This document shows, piece by piece, positions 1,759-46,657 of a DNA stretch of 52,846 nt. The DNA is taken from assembly GCA_030529365.1 (NCBI GenBank), contig JAUMXB010000016.1, positions 1-52,846 on the forward strand. The letters run 5' to 3'. The translations under genes and the position numbers were made by a program. Every line of letters starts with the position of its first letter. Positions within the stretch are counted from its first letter, which is position 1. The notes beneath the pieces were generated by a model. It had not been told where the DNA came from. It worked only from the letters and a program-made list of their open reading frames with translations, and did no database searches. Source of the DNA: Cardiobacteriaceae bacterium. Lineage in GTDB: Bacteria; Pseudomonadota; Gammaproteobacteria; Cardiobacteriales; Cardiobacteriaceae.

Positions 1759-2594
1759 GCTGTCTGCCTCCGCGCGTGGCGTTGATGGCGCACATGGGAA
1801 TGGATGAATACGCCGAGAAAACAGGCGGTTTGCAGGAGAACAATCATCGCACCGGGTACCAGATCGAGATAATAGCTGATGTAAACACCGAAAATGCAGG
1901 TGGTGATTCCGATGGCAAGGGCTATCCACAGGACGCGGCCGAAGCGCTTGGACAGGAGAAAAGCCGTCGCCCCGGGCGCAATGAGCAGGGCAATGACGAG
2001 AATGGCGCCCACGGCCTGCAAGGCGGCGACCACGGCCATGCTCACCAGGGCGAAGAAAAGCAGTTGCAGGCGGCGTACCGGCAGGCCGCTGACCATGGCC
2101 TGCACTTCGTCGAAGAAAAGGAGCATGAAGGTGCGCCACTGTACGGCAAGGACGATGAGGGTGATCGCGGAGATGACGAGCATTTGCACGAGATCGCGAT
2201 CGGCAATGGCGAGAATCTGGCCGTAGATGACGGCTTCAAGGTTGATGGCCGTGGGATTCAGGGAAATCAGCAGCAAACCGGCGGCGAAGAAGGTGGTAAA
2301 CACAAAGCCGATCACGGCATCCTGGCGCAGCATGGGCAGGCGGCGCAGAGCCAGCATGCCGAGCATGGCGAGCATGCCGGCAAAGAAAGCGCCAACGGTA
2401 TAGGGCAGGGAAAGCGCATAGGCGGCAGCCACACCGGGCACAACGGCATGGGAGAGCGCATCGCCCACCAGTGACCAGCCTTTCAGCATGAGATAGACGG
2501 AAAGCAGGGCACAAACGCCGCCAACAACGGTGGCGGCAAGCAGTGCTTTCTGCATGTACTGGTAATGCAGGGGTTCGAGCAGCAGCGCAATCAT
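1755..2594 (-). CDS. Metal ABC transporter permease (ABC-3 family), first subunit
   Basis: A 279-residue membrane protein, paralogous to the next gene downstream. It shows the family segment GWSLVGDALSHAVVPGV and a series of hydrophobic helices. Two different permease genes in one operon is the SitC/SitD (YfeC/YfeD) arrangement of enterobacterial Mn/Fe importers rather than the single ZnuB of zinc systems. Start and stop codons overlap the neighbours by four bases (ATGA), indicating translational coupling. Confidence 0.9.
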   Translation of the reverse strand: MIALLLEPLHYQYMQKALLAATVVGGVCALLSVYLMLKGWSLVGDALSHAVVPGVAAAYALSLPYTVGAFFAGMLAMLGMLALRRLPMLRQDAVIGFVFTTFFAAGLLLISLNPTAINLEAVIYGQILAIADRDLVQMLVISAITLIVLAVQWRTFMLLFFDEVQAMVSGLPVRRLQLLFFALVSMAVVAALQAVGAILVIALLIAPGATAFLLSKRFGRVLWIALAIGITTCIFGVYISYYLDLVPGAMIVLLQTACFLGVFIHSHVRHQRHARRQTA

Positions 2595-3451
2595 GGCATG
2601 TTCTCTCCTGCACCGTGCGCGGGGCTGTGTTTGCTGTCGCCATAGAAGACGGCGGGATGTTCGTCGTCGCTGACCAGCGTCAGCTCCGGCATTTGTTCGT
2701 CGCCGAGGTAGATGTTCTTCAGGCGGCCACCAAAGGCGCGCTCGAGATTGTCGCGGGTATAGGTGGTGACCATGTCGCCCACGGCAATGATGCGATGACG
2801 CAGCAGCACGACTTCATTGCAGAATTGCGGCACGGCACCAAGGTTGTGCGTGGAAACCAGCATCAGGTAGCCCTGGTCGCGCAATTCCTGGAGCAACGCC
2901 ATTACGGCCTGTTCGGTACTGATGTCCACACCGGTAAACGGCTCATCCAAGAGGATGACCCGGCTTTCCTGGGCAAGGGCACGGGCGAGGAACACCCGTT
3001 TTTTCTGGCCGCCGGAAAGCGCGCCAATCTGGCGGTCGGCCAGATCGGCAATGCCAAGGCGGGCAAGCGCTCCATCAACCTTGGCGTAATCCTGCGCGCG
3101 CGCATGGCGGAGGAAATTCATGTGGCCGTAGCGGCCAAGCAGCACAACATCGCGCACGCGAATGGGAAAATGCCAGTCAATCTGCTCGCTCTGCGGCACA
3201 TAGGCAATCGCGTTCTGCTTCAGTGCGGAAGCAACGGGCAGACCGTTGATGAGAATCCGTCCGGCCTGCGGACGGAGAATGCCCATGATGGCGTTGAACA
3301 GCGTGGACTTGCCACTGCCGTTCACGCCAACCAGGGCGCAGACCGTACCGCCTGTCAGGGAAAAAGAAACATCGTCAATGGCACGCAAACCGTTGGGATA
3401 AGTGAAATTGACATGCTCCAGCAATAAGGAAGGTACGGTCGGGGTCGTCAT
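2591..3451 (-). CDS. Metal ABC transporter ATP-binding protein
   Basis: A 286-residue ATPase. Walker A is GVNGSGKST near residue 43, the signature is LSGGQKKRVFLARAL and Walker B is VILLDEPFTGVD, followed by the H-loop STHNLG. The C-terminal tail beyond residue 240 is variable. It powers import through the two downstream permeases and is closest in architecture to SitB/YfeB/MntB-type ATPases. Start and stop each overlap a neighbour as ATGA. Confidence 0.92.
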   Translation of the reverse strand: MTTPTVPSLLLEHVNFTYPNGLRAIDDVSFSLTGGTVCALVGVNGSGKSTLFNAIMGILRPQAGRILINGLPVASALKQNAIAYVPQSEQIDWHFPIRVRDVVLLGRYGHMNFLRHARAQDYAKVDGALARLGIADLADRQIGALSGGQKKRVFLARALAQESRVILLDEPFTGVDISTEQAVMALLQELRDQGYLMLVSTHNLGAVPQFCNEVVLLRHRIIAVGDMVTTYTRDNLERAFGGRLKNIYLGDEQMPELTLVSDDEHPAVFYGDSKHSPAHGAGENMP

Positions 3452-4341
3452 TTTTGTTCAAATCCTTTCAGGAGGGTGTCGGTAGTGACTTTCAGCAGGT
3501 CGAGGAAAGTCGGCACCGGGCCGTCGGCCGCAGACAATGAATCCACATACAGCACGCCGCCGTAACGCGCACCGCTTTCCTGGGCAACCTGCTTCGCCGG
3601 CTGGTCGGAAACCGTACTTTCGCTGAAGACTACCGGGATTTTCTCGGCCTTGACTTTCTCAATCAGATCGCGAATCTGCTGCGGCGTGCCTTGCTGCTCG
3701 GCATTGATCGGCCAGAGGAAAGCTTCGCGGAAACCGATATCCTTGGCAAGGTAGCTGAAAGCGCCTTCGCTTGATACCAGCCAGCGCTGCCCTTCAGGAA
3801 TCACGGCAACCCGCGCCTTGATTTCCTCGCCCATTGCATTGAGCTTGGTTTTGTAGGCATCGGCATTCTTCTGGTATTGCGCGGCATTTTCAGGATCCAC
3901 GCCGGAAAGCGCTTTGGTGATGTTGTCCACATAAACGTGGGCATTGCTGACCGACATCCACGCATGCGGATTGGGTTTGCCATCGTACTCGCCGCCATGA
4001 ATGGAAAGCGGCTCGATGCCTTCGGTAACCACGGCAGAGGGCACATCCTTGATGTTGGCAAAGAAGCGCTCGAACCAGGTTTCCAGATTGAGGCCGTTCC
4101 AAAGAATCAGATCCGCCTTCTGCGCACTGATCAAATCCTGCGGCGTGGGTTCGTAATAGTGGATTTCCGCGCCTGGCTTGGTGATGGAAACCACCTCGGC
4201 ATGATCACCGGCCACATTCTGCGCCATGTCGGCAATGATGGTGAACGTGGTGGCAACGACAGGCTTCTTGTCGGCAGCAGCGGCGAAAGGCACACAGGCG
4301 GCCAGAGCGACAGTCAGGAAAATACGACGGGTCATGAACAT
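3448..4341 (-). CDS. Periplasmic Mn/Fe-binding protein of ABC importer (SitA/MntC type)
   Basis: A 297-residue cluster A-I substrate-binding protein with a Sec signal peptide (MTRRIFLTVALAACVPFAAA). Candidate metal ligands are the His of EIHYYEP, the His of NPHAWM, the Glu of FSESTVSD and the Asp of LYVDSLS. A His-His-Glu-Asp set is characteristic of Mn/Fe-binding members, and the His-rich loop typical of ZnuA is absent. The start at 4341 has GGAG six bases upstream; a second ATG at 4335 is also possible. It is the first gene of a five-gene operon. A perfect palindrome lies 16-30 bases upstream and may be an operator. Confidence 0.9.
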   Translation of the reverse strand: MFMTRRIFLTVALAACVPFAAAADKKPVVATTFTIIADMAQNVAGDHAEVVSITKPGAEIHYYEPTPQDLISAQKADLILWNGLNLETWFERFFANIKDVPSAVVTEGIEPLSIHGGEYDGKPNPHAWMSVSNAHVYVDNITKALSGVDPENAAQYQKNADAYKTKLNAMGEEIKARVAVIPEGQRWLVSSEGAFSYLAKDIGFREAFLWPINAEQQGTPQQIRDLIEKVKAEKIPVVFSESTVSDQPAKQVAQESGARYGGVLYVDSLSAADGPVPTFLDLLKVTTDTLLKGFEQK

Positions 4342-4356
4342 TTAGATCTCCTTGAT

Positions 4357-4371
4357 TGCGAATAGTTCGCA
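4357..4371. promoter_or_regulatory. Palindrome TGCGAA-TAG-TTCGCA upstream of the metal importer
   Basis: A perfect 6-3-6 inverted repeat lies 16-30 bases before the start codon of the substrate-binding protein gene. Position and symmetry fit a repressor site for a metal-responsive regulator, but it does not match the classic Fur box and no regulator gene is nearby. A stem in the leader RNA is an alternative. Confidence 0.35.
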
Positions 4372-4439
4372 TTTAATGCTAACACAACTTTTTCCGCTTT
4401 CCTAACAAAATTTATCGCATAACCATATTATCTCCAATG

Positions 4440-4458
4440 GTGGACAATTTTGGTCCAC
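4440..4458. promoter_or_regulatory. Palindrome GTGGAC-N7-GTCCAC
   Basis: A perfect 6-base inverted repeat with a 7-base spacer sits about 100 bases upstream of the metal-importer start. It could be a distal operator or a weak hairpin. No gene within the surrounding 4380-4560 region was recognised. Confidence 0.25.
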
Positions 4459-4742
4459 AATAATGAAAGGATGAAAGATATCGAGAAAATCCTAAAACCC
4501 ATTGGAAAATATGGGAAATTTTATCATAAATTGAAGAGCGATGCTTGCTCGACAGGCTTGCGGTTAGTGGGAGAGGTACAGGCGCGCCGTTCGCAATAGC
4601 TGCCAGCCATGCGAAATTGGCCTTGGCGGAAACGCGGGACAAGCGCATAACATAGAGAGTTGGCGTGGAGATTTATGCAGCCATTCAGCCCCAAAAATTT
4701 GCAACGACTTCCCGAAAAACAGGCAGAACGAAAGCAGACTGC

Positions 4743-4857
4743 GGGTTCCCATGAACAACAGCCGCGTTTTCATGGGAATCCGGTAGCTCGCAACAAGCAG
4801 CCTCCCAGCGCAGATGGTAAAACATGTTGGGGTTCGGCGAAGCCTCACGCCAACCTG
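4743..4857. repeat. TTGGGGTTCG/CCAACCTRC repeat, copy 1
   Basis: The stretch contains a hairpin (TTCCCATGAA ... TTTTCATGGGAA) followed by GTTGGGGTTCGGCGAAGC and CCAACCTGCG. The same modules occur at 17463-17589, 23459-23587, 35184-35291 and 41834-41913. Motifs of this kind are dispersed MITE-like repeats in many proteobacterial genomes. No coding frame is supported here. Confidence 0.5.
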
Positions 4858-4892
4858 CGTCAGTCGTCCAAAAAATCGCACCAAGCACTTAA

Positions 4893-4971
4893 TGTGATGA
4901 GAAATTTTCTCATGAATAAGCGCTTGTTGTGAGAAAATTTACCAAGAGAAGCGCTTCTTGATGGTAAAAAA
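4893..4971. repeat. AAGCGCTT double-core element 2
   Basis: Cores lie at 4918-4925 and 4949-4956, 31 bases apart, with GTGAGAAAATTTACC between. The left arm is GAGAAATTTTCTC and the right arm GGTAAAAAAC. This is the only copy not close to the 3' end of a recognised gene; it lies next to a possible broken gene at 5034-5360. Confidence 0.8.
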
Positions 4972-5033
4972 CATCCATAAGTGGAAAATTTATAAAATTT
5001 ATACCTTTCAATGAGATGCGTTTGGGAGGATAG

Positions 5034-5360
5034 ATGGCAAGCATCCGCACCATGCAGCACTTGCTGGCGGAAGCCGCCTTGGCAATCGGGGCAAAAGATA
5101 GCGACGAAGAATAAATATTTTCAGCGCGCCTTGATTGCACAAGTTCCAATCCGTGGTTTTCATGGCGGTGTGGGCAGGTGCGCGAATCAAGAAAGTCATT
5201 TCGAAGTCATATGGCTGTCTTCGCAGAAAACAGGGTGCAAACGGTGTGATATGTTTCAACCACCTTTTCCGGATACGTTGGTCAATAATGGCTATAAACC
5301 CATTGAAGAAGAAAGGTATTTTGAAAGGCTTCAGCTGCTTTGTGATAATTGTAGGGACGT
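5034..5360 (+). pseudogene. Possible frameshifted gene remnant
   Basis: An ATG at 5034 with a good ribosome binding site (GGGAGGA, 5024-5030) opens a 26-codon frame (MASIRTMQHLLAEAALAIGA ...) that stops at 5114. From about 5104 another plus frame continues with protein-like sequence, including FHGGVGRCANQESHFEVIWL and VNNGYKPIEEERYFERLQLL. This pattern fits a small gene broken by a frameshift. No family was recognised; it could equally be a genuine 26-residue peptide followed by non-coding DNA. Confidence 0.25.
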
Positions 5361-11220: not shown

Positions 11221-11297
11221 AATGAGAAATTTTCTTATCAACAAGCGCTTATAGCGAGGAAATTTCTCACGATAAGCGCTTGTTGATGGTAAAAATA
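11221..11297. repeat. AAGCGCTT double-core element 3
   Basis: Cores lie at 11243-11250 and 11274-11281 (31 bases apart) with GAGGAAATTTCTC between. The right arm GGTAAAAA ends about 20 bases beyond the argB stop codon (11315-11317, minus strand). Confidence 0.85.
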
Positions 11298-15360: not shown

Positions 15361-15437
15361 GATGAGAAAATTTATCATCAATAAGCGCTTATGGTGATAA
15401 AATTTCTCATGATAAGCGCTTTATTGTGGTAAAAAAT
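15361..15437. repeat. AAGCGCTT double-core element 4
   Basis: Cores lie at 15383-15390 and 15414-15421 (31 apart), separated by GTGATAAAATTTCTC. The element lies just after a classical GC-rich terminator, between convergent genes. From 15441 to 15610 no gene was recognised. Confidence 0.85.
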
Positions 15438-15610
15438 TGCTATTTTTAGGAAAAATATGAATAATACTATTCTTGGGGGAACCTTGCACAAACAACGGAC
15501 TGGCTGTTTGTCCCGACAGAGCCATCAATCGCGGAGAGCATTCCGGGATGCTGGCATTGCCATGCCGGGGGGCGTGCGGACGCATTCACTGCCAACCGGC
15601 AGTGCCGGCA

Positions 15611-24083: not shown

Positions 24084-24163
24084 ATAGTTGTTTTTATCAT
24101 TAATAAGCGCTTATTATGAGAAATTTTTGCAATATGAGCGCTTATTTGTGAGAAAATTTCTCA
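24084..24163. repeat. AAGCGCTT double-core element 8
   Basis: The first core is AAGCGCTT at 24105-24112 and the second is degenerate GAGCGCTT at 24136-24143, still 31 bases away. The right arm GAGAAAATTTCTC ends 22 bases beyond the yceI stop (minus strand). Confidence 0.82.
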
Positions 24164-24184: not shown

Positions 24185-24769
24185 TTATTTGCGCATGAAC
24201 TCGCCGCTGAAGGAAACGGGCACTTGCTCGACGATGGACGACAGCGCCATCACTTCCACAAGCTGCATCACGCCTTTTTCCATTTTCATGTCTTTGGTGT
24301 CGAGGATGACGGGGGTCAGGGTGTTGACCATGATTTTGTCGTCGGCGACGCGCTGCACGCTGAGTTCGGCTTGCAGGTTGATTTTCTGGCCGTGGATGTC
24401 AAGCACGAGCGGCTGCCGGAGTTTCAGGGTTTCACCGACGGCGAGCTTGTTCACCGCGTCGGCGTCCACTTTGCCGCTGACGGTGGCGGTGCCGAATTGC
24501 GCGGTTTCAAATACCCAGTCTTTCAGGCGCTGGTCGCGGATGTCGATGTTGGTTTTGACGCTGTTGAGATCGATGTTCAGGGTGAACATGCCGTCCTTGT
24601 CGAGCATGGCCTTGGAGCTGGTGAAGGCGGATTGCTCGGTGATGCTGTTTTTCTGCTGGTTGACTTTGATGCTGAGGAAGCTGATGTGGTTGTCGTTTGA
24701 TTCCCAGGCGGCGTTGTTGGCGTGGGCAAAGGCAGAGAGCATCAAAGAAGCGAGGAGGATTTTTTTCAT
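24185..24769 (-). CDS. YceI family periplasmic protein
   Basis: A 194-residue protein with a Sec signal peptide (MKKILLASLMLSAFAHA) and a YceI-like lipocalin-type beta-barrel body: DNHISFLSIKV near the start, GMFTLNIDLNSVKTNID and the central DWVFETAQFGTATVSG. YceI proteins bind isoprenoid-type lipids and are induced by base or stress; the ligand here is unknown. It is preceded by a TAGAGC element, which separates it from the hvf operon, and is probably a separate transcription unit. Confidence 0.8.
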   Translation of the reverse strand: MKKILLASLMLSAFAHANNAAWESNDNHISFLSIKVNQQKNSITEQSAFTSSKAMLDKDGMFTLNIDLNSVKTNIDIRDQRLKDWVFETAQFGTATVSGKVDADAVNKLAVGETLKLRQPLVLDIHGQKINLQAELSVQRVADDKIMVNTLTPVILDTKDMKMEKGVMQLVEVMALSSIVEQVPVSFSGEFMRK

Positions 24770-24803: not shown

Positions 24804-24989
24804 TAGAGCTTTTTTGACTCATCGAATGGCAAGATTTGCTGAAACAAGGATGTGGAAAGCTTTGTTTCTGCCCTCACCCCAACCCCAATCTCGCTTCGCG
24901 AGCTCTGACGAGTCCCGCGGGATTCGAAGAACTCGCGAAGCGAGATTGGGGCTTTAAGTTCCGTTCACATTTGAATCGAAAATGCTCTA
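24804..24989. mobile_element. TAGAGC-ended MITE, copy 1, supplying the hvfC stop codon
   Basis: The 186-base element starts TAGAGCTTTTTTGACTCAT and ends GAATCGAAAATGCTCTA, imperfect terminal inverted repeats. No transposase is encoded. It contains a long internal hairpin (AATCTCGCTTCGCGAG and its complement) and a module shared with 87-320. The flanking context CTAG at the hvfC end suggests insertion at CTAG/TA, as described for IS630-family transposases. The minus-strand stop codon TAG of hvfC (24989-24987) lies in the element's terminal TAG. Confidence 0.7.
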
Positions 24990-25745
24990 GACAGGGTGCC
25001 CGGCATGCAGGACGTCCAGCACCGCCCAGTGGCGCATGGCCTGGCGCAGCTGCGGACGCTTGCTTTCAATATCCGGCAGATAGTCGGCCAGTGCGGCGAT
25101 AAGCGCGTCGAGGCTGGCCGCTTCGCTGCCGATTTGCTGCAATAGCTGGAAGTCGGCAGGCGACGGTTCGGCATGCTGCACGCGGTCTGCGCTATCGCGC
25201 CAGATGAGGCTCAGGCAAGGGCGCGGCGGCGCATCCTTTTCGTGCACGCGATGGCCGTAGGCGGCGAGGCTGGCGCCAGGTGCAAGGCGCAGGGGCGTGG
25301 CGTCGAAGCTGTCGTCATCCAGTGCGGCAAGCTGTTCGGGGCCGAGTCGCGGCTGGCCGTCATCCAGGGCAATTTCCGCGGCCAGCTCGCGGCATTCGGC
25401 ATCCATGATGTCAAGGATGCGGATGTCCAGGCTGTGGCGCTCGCGATGGTGCGCCAGAAATTGCCCGGGAATATCGGAAAAGAGCGGCGAATGCGCCTGG
25501 CCGTTGGCCACGAAATCTTCCTTGGCGGCTTCCCAGTCGGCGTCATCGAGGAGACGGCGCGCATGGGTGAAGCAGCGGTCGAGAAAGTTGTGCAGGTTGT
25601 TGCGGATGAGACGTCGATAGACGGCAAGCCCTTCGTCGTCGCTTGCCACCGGCGGGGCAACGCTGTCCGGGCGGCGCAGATGGCCGGTGAGGGCATCGCG
25701 GTAGCGCTGTTCGGCAAGGGCGGACGCGGCTGCGGTGTTATGCAT
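24987..25745 (-). CDS. hvfC: HvfC-like RiPP maturation partner (DUF2063)
   Basis: A 252-residue protein. The N-terminal DUF2063 domain (about 10-100) includes [20 protein letters not shown] and [15 protein letters not shown]. Proteins of this family act with the adjacent DUF692 enzyme, binding or presenting the precursor peptide. The start at 25745 overlaps the hvfB stop by eight bases, indicating coupling. The C-terminus ([11 protein letters not shown]) ends on a TAG that belongs to the adjoining mobile element, so the original C-terminus may have been longer or may have ended at the same codon. Confidence 0.82.
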
Positions 25746-26628
25746 GTGCGGCCTCCGCACGGGCGGCGGCGTGTGCGTTGCGCGCCGGTTTGTGCGCGGC
25801 CTGCTGGATGCGGCGGATATGGTCCACTTCTTCGAGCAGCTCGGGCAGCGGCGGCAGGTTGAAATCGCGCTCCAGCAAGGTGGGCGGGATAAAGGGCAGC
25901 TTGCCGTAGGCGTAGGCGAGGATGTCCCACACGTCGTCGCAGACCGGTTCGCCGTGCGTATCGATGAGAAGGCGCGGGTTTTCCGAGTCGTGTCCGGCAA
26001 TATGAATATAGGACACGCGCGCGTGATCGACGCGGTCGATGAAGTTGCGCGGGGCGACGTGGCCGTGGTTGACGGCGTTCACATAGATGTTGTTCACGTC
26101 GAGATGGATGTTGCAATCGGCTTCCTGCGCGACGGCATTCAGGAAATCGACTTCATCCATTTCGCAATGCGGCGCGTGCAGGTAATACGAGGTGTTCTCG
26201 ATGGCGATGCGCGTTTCGAGAATATCCTGGGCGCGGCGGATGCGCGCGGCGGTATGGCGCACGTTTTCCGCGGTAAAGGCAAGCGGCAGCAGGTCGTAGA
26301 GATGGCCGTTGTGCTCGCAGTAGCTCAAGTGCTCGGAGAAGAAGCGGCAGTGGTACTGCTTCATGAACGCCTTGATATTGCCGAGCAGGGTTTCATCGAG
26401 GGGATCGCGCCCGCCCAGCGAGAGCGACAGGCCGTGAATGGCAAGCGGCCAGCGTTCGGCGGCGGCATCAAAGGCTTTGCGCGCCGCGCCGCCAATGTGC
26501 ATCCAGTTTTCCGGGGCGATTTCGATGAAATCGATGTGGCTGCCGTGGTCGGGCAGGGCGAGCATTTGTTCGGCAATGCTGCGGCGATAGCCGAGGCCCG
26601 CGCCGTAAAGGTCGCAAGAAGTCTTCAT
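25738..26628 (-). CDS. hvfB: HvfB-like multinuclear iron oxidative enzyme (DUF692)
   Basis: A 296-residue TIM-barrel enzyme of the MNIO (DUF692) family, relatives of MbnB and TglH. Typical segments with probable iron ligands are [46 protein letters not shown] and [12 protein letters not shown]. Such enzymes convert Cys residues of a precursor peptide into oxazolone/thioamide or related groups that bind copper. Two consecutive ATGs are possible; 26628 has the better spacing to AGGAG, 26631 is too close. It lies 207 bases downstream of the precursor gene hvfA, across two hairpins, and overlaps hvfC. Confidence 0.9.
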
Positions 26629-26670
26629 CATAACTCCTGAATAAAAGGCATTCGTGATGCCGCATCATGA

Positions 26671-26787
26671 ATGGTTTGCATGGGTATCTATACAGGTTCA
26701 CCTGGCTGGCCGGCCTGCGGAGGCGCAACCGATCACCGCAAAGCAATCATTCCGCAAACCACCTGTATAGATACCCATGAAAACCAT
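26671..26787. repeat. 27-base inverted repeat between hvfA and hvfB
   Basis: The left arm (26671-26697) and right arm (26761-26787) are inverted repeats with one mismatch; the core is CATGGGTATCTATACAGGT. The 63 bases between them are GC-rich. In the hvf transcript this would form a long stem between precursor and enzyme genes and could act as an mRNA-processing or attenuating structure. A 117-base MITE is the alternative, though no target duplication is evident. Confidence 0.55.
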
Positions 26788-26797
26788 AACGGGGAGA

Positions 26798-26819
26798 GGC
26801 GACGGCAGATGCCGCCGCC
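26798..26819 (-). promoter_or_regulatory. Hairpin just after the hvfA stop codon
   Basis: On the minus strand GGCGGCGGCA-TC-TGCCGTCGCC pairs over ten positions with one G-U. It lies 17 bases past the hvfA stop and lacks a T-run, so it is more likely a 3'-end stabiliser of the precursor mRNA than a terminator. Confidence 0.5.
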
Positions 26820-26835
26820 CGAAGAAATGCCAGTC

Positions 26836-27195
26836 TTATTTCCTGGCTTTTTTGTCGGCGCCGCAAGAGCCTTCGCTGTTCTTGCCGCCGCAGGCACCTT
26901 CGGCCGTCTTGCCGTCGGCTGCTTTCCCGTCAGCACCACAGGCGCCCTCGCTGCTCTTGCCGCCACAAGCACCTTCGGCGACTTTGCAGTTGTCTTTTTC
27001 GGCGGTTTGGCCTTCGCCACAGATTTTCAGCTCTTCGCCTTCTTTCCTGGCATTGTTTGCAGCGCATTTGCCTTCGCCGCATGCGCCCTGGGTGGCCTTG
27101 GTTTCCGCCTTTTCCTGCTTGGCAGGGGCGGTTTCCGCGAAAGTGGCGCCGCTTGCGAGCAGACCGGCCAAGGCAAGCATTGCGGTTTTCTTCAT
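26836..27195 (-). CDS. hvfA: HvfA-like RiPP metallophore precursor
   Basis: A 119-residue precursor. Residues 1-20 are a Sec signal peptide (MKKTAMLALAGLLASGATFA). The rest is hydrophilic with eight cysteines at 39, 44, 59, 70, 77, 86, 102 and 111. Five lie in repeated (E/Q)G(A/S)CG motifs: QGACG, three EGACG and EGSCG; GEGKC resembles the EGKCG motif of Haemophilus HvfA. In known systems the MNIO enzyme modifies such Cys residues to copper-binding groups and the product protects against copper. The start at 27195 has GGAG upstream. It is followed by a hairpin, an inverted repeat and then hvfB and hvfC. Confidence 0.88.
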   Translation of the reverse strand: MKKTAMLALAGLLASGATFAETAPAKQEKAETKATQGACGEGKCAANNARKEGEELKICGEGQTAEKDNCKVAEGACGGKSSEGACGADGKAADGKTAEGACGGKNSEGSCGADKKARK

Positions 27196-27217
27196 AAACA
27201 GTTTCTCCAGTGAATAT

Positions 27218-27673
27218 TCAAGGTTTGACAAGGAATCTCCGGACGATATGGTCCAGAGACAGCGCACCGGCGCCTTGCAGCACCAGCGGCAATAACGTAA
27301 TCAGATAAATCAAAGGCAGTTTGAAGCCGTTTTGCGAGACGTTGTAACCGTTGCCCGCATGGACGGCATACCAGGCGACTGCCGTGAGAATCATCAGCGC
27401 GACGGCGCTGCCACGCGTGAAAAGCCCGAGCGCGATCAAAACGGGCGCGACCAGCTCCGTCCACATCGACAGCTGCCAGTTGAAATCCGGCGGCAGGGCG
27501 GAAAACGGCCAGGGGAACTTGTCGGCAATATGGGCAAACCAATTCTCGCCGTTCCATTTTTCCAGCCCCGCCTCGAAAAATTCGTAGGCGATGAACAGGC
27601 GCAACCCGAGCAGGCCGACCGCTTTGCCTGCGTTGTCGGAAAACATTTGCAGGCGTTGCAGGGCCAGCTCCAT
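27218..27673 (-). CDS. DoxX family membrane protein
   Basis: A 151-residue inner-membrane protein with four helices, starting MELALQRLQMFSDNAGKAVG. GLRLFIAYEFFEAGLEKWNG and VAPVLIALGLFTRGSAVAL are typical of DoxX. DoxX proteins frequently accompany DUF692/DUF2063 RiPP operons, and a membrane role in the metallophore pathway is inferred. It starts 6 bases after the AhpD-like gene and ends 22 bases before hvfA, firmly inside the operon. Confidence 0.85.
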   Translation of the reverse strand: MELALQRLQMFSDNAGKAVGLLGLRLFIAYEFFEAGLEKWNGENWFAHIADKFPWPFSALPPDFNWQLSMWTELVAPVLIALGLFTRGSAVALMILTAVAWYAVHAGNGYNVSQNGFKLPLIYLITLLPLVLQGAGALSLDHIVRRFLVKP

Positions 27674-27679
27674 CCGGGA

Positions 27680-28015
27680 TTACTCCGCCGCCTCGAAGGC
27701 ATCAAGCGCGCGCGCCGAGTAAACCATCGCCGCGCCGGCATTCATGGCAACGGCAACGGAAAGCGCTTCGGCCAGTTCCTGTTCGGTGGCGCCGGCTTTC
27801 TTCGCCGCTGCGGCATGTACGCCAATGCAACCGTCGCAGCGCGTTGTGACTGCAACCGCCATGGAAATCAGCTCGCGGGTCTTGGTATCGAGCACGCCGC
27901 CCTCGGCATTGGCCTTGGCAAGCGTTTGATAGCCCTTCATGGTCTCCGGGCTCAATTTGGCAAAACCGCCCAGACGGGCCATCAGCTTGGTGCGATATTC
28001 TTTCCAGTTCAGCAT
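27680..28015 (-). CDS. Carboxymuconolactone decarboxylase/AhpD-like protein
   Basis: A 111-residue helical protein with the CMD-family CxxC motif in TTRCDGCIGVHAAAAKKAG. The nearby His and the Glu of TRELISMAVAV complete the usual proton-relay pattern. AhpD-like proteins are thiol peroxidase partners, so it may handle peroxide or thiol redox state linked to copper stress. The start at 28015 is placed by GGAG upstream and by family length; a frame extension to 28048 is unsupported. It is the first gene of the hvf operon and faces an araC-type regulator. Confidence 0.85.
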   Translation of the reverse strand: MLNWKEYRTKLMARLGGFAKLSPETMKGYQTLAKANAEGGVLDTKTRELISMAVAVTTRCDGCIGVHAAAAKKAGATEQELAEALSVAVAMNAGAAMVYSARALDAFEAAE

Positions 28016-28110
28016 GAGAAAACTCCTTGTGTTTTGAAGGGTGCGCATTGTAGGGCGGGCATGCTAAGCTGGTAATCCTGAAAAATCGCAAAAAACTCCG
28101 CAAACGTCTC

Positions 28111-29043
28111 ATGAGCACCATCGACCGCTTTCTAACCCTCCTCAACCTCTCCACCAGCCTCGATACCTATTGCGCCATGTGTTCCCCTTATGACCTGCCG
28201 CACCAGGCACTCGAACCCGGCAATATCTACTTCCACATCCTGCTCGCCGGACGCTGCACGCTGGTCACCGATTCCGGCCACACGCAAATCCTGCAACCCG
28301 GCGACTTTTATCTCCTGACCAGCGGCGAGGCGCATGCCATGCGCGATGGTGATGCGAGCCAGGGGCAACGGAAAGTTCGCCAAACCGACCACGACGGCAT
28401 CCGCCACGCCTGCAACTTCGAGGGCAGCGCCACCCCCGACATGGAAATGCTCTGCGGCTTCTTCCATACCGGCAACCCGGCAAGCCTGGCCCTGCTGCAA
28501 CAATTCCCGCAGCCGCTCTGCGTCTCCCTGCGCGATCATGGCGAACTCGATGCCCTGTGCGCCGTCATCCGCAACGAAGCGCTGGCGCAAAGCGCCGGCA
28601 GCGTGCGCGTCATCCACCATCTCTGCGAAATCCTGCTGCTCTTTGCCCTGCGCCGCGCCGGTGAAATCCACGTGGAAAATGGCATGCTCGCGCTCCTTGG
28701 CGATCCGGCACTCGAGCGCGTGCTTGCCCATGTGCTGGCCGACATCACGCAGCACCACAGCACCGAAGCGCTTGCCGACGTCGCCTGCCTGTCGCGCGCC
28801 ACCTTCGCGCGGCGTTTCCAGAAAGCGGCAGGCTGCGGCGTGCAAACCTTCATCCGCTCCCTGCGCATGATGGAAGCCGCGCGCCTCCTGAAAGACGGCA
28901 CCCTGCCGATCAGCCACATTGCCGAACGCTGCGGCTACCAGTCCGACACGGCTTTCCATGACAACTTCCGCGCCCAGTTCGGCATGACGCCCGCCAAATA
29001 CCGGCGCGAGTGCGCCAACAAAAACAGCAAGGATATTGAATAG
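28111..29043 (+). CDS. AraC family transcriptional regulator
   Basis: A 310-residue regulator. The N-terminal cupin-like sensor (about 1-190) contains YFHILLAGRCTLVT and LQPGDFYLLTSGEAH; the C-terminal pair of helix-turn-helix motifs includes VACLSRATFARRFQKAAG and ISHIAERCGYQSDTAFHDNF. It is divergent from the AhpD-like gene across 95 bases, which suggests that it controls the AhpD-DoxX-hvfABC operon and itself. The inducer is unknown. Confidence 0.88.
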   Translation: MSTIDRFLTLLNLSTSLDTYCAMCSPYDLPHQALEPGNIYFHILLAGRCTLVTDSGHTQILQPGDFYLLTSGEAHAMRDGDASQGQRKVRQTDHDGIRHACNFEGSATPDMEMLCGFFHTGNPASLALLQQFPQPLCVSLRDHGELDALCAVIRNEALAQSAGSVRVIHHLCEILLLFALRRAGEIHVENGMLALLGDPALERVLAHVLADITQHHSTEALADVACLSRATFARRFQKAAGCGVQTFIRSLRMMEAARLLKDGTLPISHIAERCGYQSDTAFHDNFRAQFGMTPAKYRRECANKNSKDIE

Positions 29044-29077
29044 AACGATATTTTCATATTACAAGAAATTATCGACA

Positions 29078-29150
29078 TTTTTTCTCACAATAAGCGCTTT
29101 ATGTTGAGAAATTTTCCCGGTATAAGCGCTTAATGATGAGAAAATTTCTT
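29078..29150. repeat. AAGCGCTT double-core element 9
   Basis: Cores lie at 29092-29099 and 29124-29131, 32 bases apart, around GTTGAGAAATTTTCCC. The left arm TTTTTTCTCAC begins about 35 bases after the araC-type gene's stop codon. Confidence 0.83.
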
Positions 29151-29281: not shown

Positions 29282-29372
29282 TGGCGGAAGCGGTGAGATT
29301 CGAACTCACGGTGGGCTACGAACCCACGACGGTTTTCAAGACCGCTGCATTAAACCGCTCTGCCACGCTTCC
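29282..29372 (-). tRNA. tRNA-Ser (anticodon UGA)
   Basis: The 91-base gene has acceptor stem GGAAGCG/CGCTTCC, encoded CCA, a long class II variable arm (GTGGGTTCGTAGCCCAC) and anticodon loop CTTGAAA, giving UGA. A promoter and a terminator flank it, so it is a single-gene transcript. Confidence 0.95.
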
Positions 29373-40355: not shown

Positions 40356-40440
40356 AAAAATAGTGATTTTTTACCATGAAGAAGCGCTTATCGTGAGAAA
40401 TTTTCTCGCAATAAGCGCTTGATAGTGAGAAAATTTACCA
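40356..40440. repeat. AAGCGCTT double-core element 13
   Basis: Cores lie at 40382-40389 and 40413-40420 (31 apart) with GTGAGAAATTTTCTC between. The left arm is AAAATAGTGATTTTTTACC. The right arm ends directly at the stop codon of the YobD-HAD gene (40442). It separates that gene from PTS operon 1. Confidence 0.9.
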
Positions 40441-44648: not shown

Positions 44649-44913
44649 TTTCCCTCCTTTTGTCAGGGATATGGATGATCAGGCACGAGATGCGGCTGAC
44701 GGAGGGATTCTAACGGTTTTCTCAAGCGATGGAAATGATGCGGAGAGATAAGGTGTCGTTATTCAATAAAAAATTTAAATGATGATAAGCAGGGAAATCT
44801 GCTGGTTGCGTTTGTCACGGCAAAAACCATGCCGGATGGTTCGCTGCAAGCGTGATGCGGTCGGGGTTGGCTGCCCGGTGTTTGGTAAAAATGTATATTT
44901 CACAATTGTTGAA

Positions 44914-44996
44914 AAAATGATAAATATTCTCATGATAAAGCGCTTATCGTGAGAAATTTTATCACAACAAGCGCTTGTTGATGAGAAAAAATACCA
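44914..44996. repeat. AAGCGCTT double-core element 15
   Basis: Cores lie at 44938-44945 and 44969-44976 (31 apart) with GTGAGAAATTTTATC between. The right arm GATGAGAAAAAATACC abuts the lemA stop codon (44998-45000, minus strand). Confidence 0.88.
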
Positions 44997-46555: not shown

Positions 46556-46640
46556 AGTTATTTTTTCTCATGATGAAGCGCTTATGGTGAGAAATTTTCT
46601 CAATGTAAGCGCTTTGTTATGAGAAAAAACGACTGTTTTT
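46556..46640. repeat. AAGCGCTT double-core element 16
   Basis: Cores lie at 46576-46583 and 46607-46614 (31 apart) with GTGAGAAATTTTCTC between. It lies between the convergent 3' ends of the genes ending at 46547 (plus) and 46658 (minus), where it could serve both. Confidence 0.9.
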
Positions 46641-46657
46641 CGGTGTTTTTTGAGCGG

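Follow-up and report, generated by a model that had tools for sequence, protein, structure and literature searches.

Captophorins are among the most numerous operons for ribosomally synthesized and post-translationally modified peptides (RiPPs), and their physiological role is still open (PMC12668002). In Haemophilus influenzae, the hvf genes are induced by hypochlorous acid (HOCl) in dependence on RpoE2, an extracytoplasmic function (ECF) sigma factor akin to Neisseria SigE (PMC7907618). Responses to HOCl in other bacteria rely on a regulator of a different type, RclR, which in Escherichia coli becomes active once Cys21 and Cys89 are oxidized (PMC7464077). In Pseudomonas aeruginosa, RclR activates an adjacent AhpD-family gene, rclX, under HOCl or hypothiocyanous acid (HOSCN), and resistance needs both genes (PMC7950407). 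A tie to copper is also on record, as free copper signals rise under HOCl in both compartments of E. coli, where RclR controls a copper(II) reductase (PMC7527725). Here we describe a locus in which genes of both kinds stand together, at positions 24987-29043 of contig JAUMXB010000016.1 from a Cardiobacteriaceae bacterium; the whole stretch analysed, 52,846 nt, is referred to as the window. The locus is a captophorin (HvfABCX-type) operon, and hence of a known kind, and we consider it probable (about 0.62) that it is under RclR-type, HOCl/HOSCN-sensing control and works through the whole of the pathway proposed below.

A captophorin operon with a divergent regulator

The locus is a five-gene minus-strand operon, transcribed in the order AhpD-like, DoxX, Cys-rich precursor, MNIO/DUF692 enzyme and DUF2063 partner, along with a divergent plus-strand gene of the AraC type. 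This is the gene set that the original prediction had named, and its coordinates are correct. The features are as follows.

28111-29043, plus strand: RclR-like regulator (Cupin_6 and AraC helix-turn-helix, 310 aa), with Cys21/Cys115 aligned to the redox Cys21/Cys89 of E. coli RclR
28080-28115, no strand assigned: 36-nt block identical in both congeners, candidate regulator site
28047-28075, minus strand: candidate operon promoter, TTACCA - 17 - TACAAT, from sequence (TTATCA/TACAAT in the congener)
27680-28015, minus strand: RclX-like AhpD-family protein (111 aa, E...CDGC...H), from Pfam and NCBIfam domain matches
27218-27673, minus strand: HvfX, DoxX-like membrane protein (151 aa), from the NCBIfam HvfX model
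26836-27195, minus strand: HvfA-like precursor (119 aa, 8 Cys), with a signal peptide at 27136-27195 and a 99-aa Cys-rich region
26797-26820, minus strand: RNA hairpin 1, 10 bp, 3' of the precursor stop, from folding and comparison with the congener
26671-26787, minus strand: RNA hairpin 2, a long branched stem (fold z = -7.4), with pairs conserved in the congener
25738-26631, minus strand: HvfB, MNIO/DUF692 iron enzyme, from PF05114, the NCBIfam HvfB model and a match to 3BWW
24987-25733, minus strand: HvfC, DUF2063/NGO1945_C partner (RRE/PME1), from the NCBIfam HvfC model

The gaps between the genes (6 nt for AhpD-DoxX, 22 nt for DoxX-precursor, 204 nt for precursor-DUF692 and 4 nt for DUF692-DUF2063) are consistent with a single operon. 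The domain matches are strong for the DUF692 enzyme (PF05114, 2.6e-98) and the DUF2063 partner (2.3e-19), both already placed after the precursor in the first reading of the sequence, as well as for DoxX (7.8e-22) and the CMD/AhpD domain (1.7e-23, motif CDGC). All six genes are in identical order in G001, the sole congeneric genome compared, with all reading frames intact in both, and the closest relative with a name, a metagenome-assembled genome (MAG) of Cardiobacteriaceae with an HvfB 88% identical, is apparently this congener itself.

The assignment to the HvfABC type, proposed from the letters alone, is strengthened by scores above the NCBIfam cut-offs for HvfB (378.3 bits, cut-off 360), HvfC (145.3 bits, cut-off 142) and HvfX (139.4 bits, cut-off 80). 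HvfB also matches the solved MNIO of Histophilus somni, 3BWW (E 3e-107), and the catalytic base and three substrate-gating residues of FonB are conserved in it, with D256, F257, R16 and R17 corresponding to FonB D249, F250, R15 and R16. The precursor, in turn, reaches 21.1 bits against the NCBIfam HvfA model NF050188 (cut-off 95). The models for related classes do not fit the enzyme, BufB giving 259.8 bits for a cut-off of 310, with no DUF2282 precursor match, and methanobactin MbnB giving 51.5 bits for a cut-off of 325.

The RclR-like regulator and the RclX-like protein

The best curated match of the regulator is RclR (the reactive-chlorine sensor model NF040475), at 113.1 bits, below the cut-off of that model, and the protein is therefore labelled "RclR-like." Its identity is 29% with E. 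coli RclR and 88% with the congener copy. In an alignment of 29 proteins, C21 and C115 occupy the positions of E. coli Cys21 and Cys89 (an earlier three-sequence alignment, which set Cys89 opposite a non-cysteine, is superseded). The Cys89 position is a cysteine in 24 of the 29 homologues and the Cys21 position in only five: the window protein, its congener, E. coli RclR, a Rhizobium protein and a protein from locus L147. The 23 proteins without Cys21, one fragment excepted, fall together on a single side of the tree, with support of 84/93. A phylum-wide search of RclX loci found seven AraC-type neighbours, all seven with both cysteines. When these are combined with the window, congener and Rhizobium proteins, the RclX-linked regulators have Cys21 in 10/10 and the unlinked ones in 1/24 (Fisher p = 8e-8, rising to 9e-7 when the window genus is left out, with relatedness ignored).

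The first product of the operon matches the AhpD core domain at 62.8 bits (cut-off 27.8) and retains the family's E, CxxC and H residues. Like RclX, it is an AhpD-family CxxC protein encoded beside an RclR-type regulator, here across a divergent 95-nt spacer, and its relatives, 52-67% identical, are found beside RclR-type genes. When the AhpD and AraC proteins were searched separately against 72,556 plasmid records, their best matches turned out to adjoin in Rhizobium, where they are divergent, and in Photobacterium. The Photobacterium plasmid copy is as close to the RclX of the window (67%) as is the copy of the congener.

The spacer is 83% identical between both congeneric genomes, and its last 31 nt, together with the first codons of the regulator, make up 36 identical nt. 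A direct repeat, CGCAAA-N6-CGCAAA, is found at 28087-28092 and 28099-28104, 12-29 bp upstream of the -35 element of rclX, and the conserved block with this repeat is a candidate site for the regulator. A shared RclR motif was sought in the Rhizobium and E. coli spacers; the direct repeat is absent from the former, and one copy of CGCAAA is present in the latter.

An unusual precursor and its predicted chemistry

The precursor had been described as carrying a signal peptide and eight Cys, exactly five of them in (E/Q)G(A/S)CG, and all of this is borne out. The signal peptide, judged by eye, is Sec-like, MKKTAMLALAGLLASGATFA/ET, and the Cys repeats that follow it lie directly upstream of hvfBC, as expected of the HvfA type. 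The contexts of the cysteines are QGACG (C39), EGKCA (C44), LKICG (C59), KDNCK (C70), EGACG (C77, C86 and C102) and EGSCG (C111), with no EGKCG at all, and all eight are kept in the congener. The mature peptide has six [E/Q]GxC motifs, while 20,000 shuffles of it averaged 0.24 and never exceeded 3. The repeats are atypical when set against 67 precursors that a simple scan for open reading frames picked up next to HvfB relatives, a few of which are probably false calls: Lys precedes Cys at 442 of 541 sites in this set and rarely in the window precursor, and EG(A/S)CG outnumbers EGKCG only in the window genus and in one unrelated genome. The latter, a proteobacterial MAG (E14_bin-0077; locus L003, positions 2581-5224), encodes a Lys-poor Cys-repeat precursor near an HvfB that is 56% identical to that of the window, and between these two genes stands one for a membrane protein that looks DedA-like by eye.

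As to the product, the oxazolone/thioamide chemistry first suggested for this locus follows an older naming of the class, superseded by the 5-thiooxazole now assigned by two groups (PMC12668002, PMC13419390). It had also been suggested that, with EGACG in place of EGKCG, the product may differ. However, FonBC fully modified an EAACGEGACG substrate and tolerated Ala after Cys, while leaving motifs with a charged residue after Cys unprocessed (PMC12668002). The same core chemistry is therefore expected here, even though the peptide is unusual. With the substrate range of FonBC as a guide, six of the eight cysteines (C39, C44, C77, C86, C102 and C111) are predicted sites. C70 is predicted to stay unmodified and C59 is a doubtful substrate; probably neither is modified. 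A precursor so poor in Lys represents a natural substrate for probing which residues the enzyme tolerates.

Two conserved hairpins between hvfA and hvfB

The 204-nt gap downstream of the precursor gene encodes the two RNA hairpins listed above. Hairpin 1 differs from its counterpart in the congener by one compensatory and three one-sided, pair-keeping changes. When the sequences of the two genomes are folded separately, the hairpins share 57 pairs, with 7 one-sided changes, 2 compensatory changes and 0 broken pairs, and the columns that differ amount to 11/114 of the paired versus 28/62 of the unpaired ones. Hairpin 2 is present as a single copy in each congeneric genome; a covariance model did not find it in the other 38 relatives, and it has no Rfam match at E <= 1. 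Its single copy in both genomes and its absence from those 38 relatives rule it out as a mobile repeat. Nor is it a classic terminator, since the long stem lacks a T-run behind it. Our best guess is that the hairpins protect the upstream message, and they offer a possible explanation for the balance between the amounts of precursor and enzyme.

Rarity of the linkage and a different regulator in relatives

The joining of these genes appears to be rare. In 80 named loci of HvfB relatives scanned with our own profiles (59 longer than 11 kb, the others ending at contig ends), a match to RclX or RclR was found in one, the congeneric locus, and an ECF sigma gene in 12. No further RclX-HvfX linkage came to light in the top-ranking loci retrieved for HvfX and for RclX by class and phylum searches. 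An apparent linkage at L202 and L243 was rejected, as these loci lack HvfB and the AhpD-domain protein is a different one. The literature searched holds no report of RclX joined to MNIO operons.

In other members of the family (G003, G010 and G011), an ECF sigma gene lies close to hvf, directly after hvfC in G003 and G011 and after hvfC and a DoxX gene in G010, and the precursors are mostly of the EGKCG kind. This sigma gene has no match in the window genome (97% complete) or in the congener (78%). Judging from these gene contents, the simplest reading would be a change of regulator with the signal kept. An RclR-like sensor with an RclX-like peroxidase here, and an ECF sigma factor in close relatives, suggest that host-made oxidants, and not copper alone, are the signal.

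Proposed pathway and its rivals

The pathway that we propose would begin with host-made HOCl or HOSCN, which would oxidize Cys21 and Cys115 of the AraC-type sensor, and the oxidized sensor would then switch on the divergent promoter (about 28047-28075). The RclX-like AhpD-family peroxidase, encoded first, would help to remove the oxidant or its products, and HvfX and the HvfA-like precursor would be made next. In the cytoplasm, HvfB, a mixed-valent iron enzyme to which HvfC would present the precursor, would convert the Cys of EGxC(G/A) motifs, at the six predicted sites, into 5-thiooxazoles. The peptide would be exported by Sec to the periplasm, and there it would bind copper, including copper freed from oxidant-damaged copper proteins; the copper signals raised by HOCl in E. 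coli may give a reason for a periplasmic copper binder under such stress. The probable role of the two strong hairpins behind hvfA is to shield the upstream message or to split it off, which would give an excess of precursor over the enzymes.

The original prediction looked to copper-induced expression as a check, and the strongest rival is an ordinary captophorin or bufferin operon induced by copper or another metal, directly or through the AraC protein, with the AhpD gene incidental. Excess metal does frequently induce 5-thiooxazole operons (PMC12668002), and bufferins are described as aiding growth under copper stress (PMC12452194). However, the closest well-studied operon is induced by HOCl (PMC7907618), an oxidant-defence gene heads the operon here, and the regulator, which keeps the cysteines of the HOCl sensor, has no known metal-sensing relatives in the searches made. 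The RclR-like regulator with both redox cysteines and the RclX-like protein thus point to HOCl or HOSCN as the likely inducer rather than copper, and we consider simple metal control unlikely. A response to electrophiles or to thiol stress in general, in which the AraC-AhpD pair would sense a reactive electrophile or quinone and the peptide would be as much a thiol sink as a copper binder, could be read from plasmids on which AhpD-family or cupin AraC genes lie near genes for nitroreductase, OsmC, thioredoxin, alkene reductase and glutathione transferase. Yet the TetR regulators at some of these places are unrelated, the AraC type with Cys21 is the HOCl type in both organisms studied, and P. 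aeruginosa rclR is dispensable against N-ethylmaleimide, methylglyoxal and diamide (PMC7950407), all of which makes this reading quite improbable. Still harder to credit is that the precursor, its repeats being poor in Lys, is not a 5-thiooxazole substrate and that HvfB makes some other change or the operon is decaying; the score below the HvfA cut-off and the near lack of the Lys typical of relatives would agree with this, but the processing of EAACGEGACG by FonBC (PMC12668002), the intact frames in both genomes, the eight conserved Cys and the intact catalytic residues speak against it.

Several observations weigh against HOCl/HOSCN-sensing control as well. The arrangement is found in only two genomes of one genus, one of them a MAG at 78% completeness, and the AraC protein lies far under the curated RclR cut-off (113 versus 400 bits), outside the E. 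coli equivalog. The statistics on Cys21 take no account of relatedness. In Klebsiella and Erwinia, relatives of the AhpD protein accompany TetR regulators and further redox genes, so the protein is a general part of oxidant defence, not specific to HOCl sensing. Finally, RclX is only 66% identical between the congeners (window versus locus L099, positions 3734-4072), while HvfB and the regulator are 88% identical, so that it may be only loosely tied to the pathway; to judge from the sequences, it may have evolved fast or been replaced in place. A bolder proposal is that of a dedicated defence against hypohalous acids, in which the thiol-bearing 5-thiooxazole peptide, taking up periplasmic oxidant as well as copper, and the RclX-like enzyme would act as one unit and the two-hairpin RNA would set a high ratio of precursor to enzyme. 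We regard this as decidedly unlikely, but, if it were true, captophorins would serve host-associated bacteria primarily as antioxidant copper buffers, and ECF sigma factors and RclR-type regulators would have been recruited repeatedly to one signal.

Surroundings of the locus

A gene for a YceI-like secreted protein (24185-24769) lies 3' of hvfC in both congeneric genomes, and a functional link is possible. Between the two lies a dispersed hairpin repeat (CCCCAATCTCGCTTCGCGAG..., 24874-24958), with tens of matches per genome. Another dispersed repeat, of about 65-75 nt, is built from two dyads whose AAGCGCTT cores are spaced by about 31 nt. Its copies flank the locus at 24092-24156 and 29076-29150 (more narrowly, 29080-29144), with more near 421-495, 4899-4974, 11224-11297, 15364-15439, 40363-40440, 44912-44993 and 46556-46647. 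About 80 matches or more are present per congeneric genome (532 and 491 candidates at first look), and so the flanking copies are ruled out as ends of a mobile cassette. Beyond the regulator and this element lies a tRNA-Ser gene (anticodon TGA; 29282-29372, minus strand).

Comparison with known systems

What is new here is the RclR-like/RclX-like head, the lack of the sigma gene of the relatives, the Lys-poor repeats and the conserved RNA element. Bufferins (Buf1/Buf2) and methanobactin are alike in being copper-binding peptides made by MNIO enzymes, and differ by the BufB and MbnB scores below cut-off and by the lack of a DUF2282 precursor here. The HOCl/HOSCN-induced operon PA14_21570-21600 of P. 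aeruginosa may be its bufferin operon, a suspicion that is not used as evidence. The rclR-rclABC system of E. coli shares a Cys21/Cys89 regulator divergent from its targets, one of which is copper-handling, but the regulator is only 29% identical and controls a flavoprotein reductase along with two small proteins, with no RiPP. The rclR-rclX pair of P. aeruginosa is alike in an RclR-type AraC regulator beside an AhpD-family CxxC gene, but rclX is there a single-gene operon without peptide genes (PMC7950407). The fonABC locus of Fontimonas thermophila (fontiphorin) and the ngo locus of Neisseria gonorrhoeae (gonophorin) share the MNIO and PME1 pair, the EGxCG repeats and the FonB gating residues; unlike the operon here, the fon locus has neither RclR/RclX nor a DoxX gene, and has Lys before Cys. 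Closest of the described systems is hvfABCX of nontypeable H. influenzae (oxazolin), with HvfX, a secreted Cys-repeat precursor, HvfB and HvfC, and the gene order here is that of its DoxX cluster RS07455-07470 (PMC7907618). While that system is controlled by the ECF sigma factor RpoE2 and has EGKCG repeats, the operon of the window has an RclR-like/RclX-like head, EGACG, EGSCG and QGACG repeats, and two hairpins between hvfA and hvfB.

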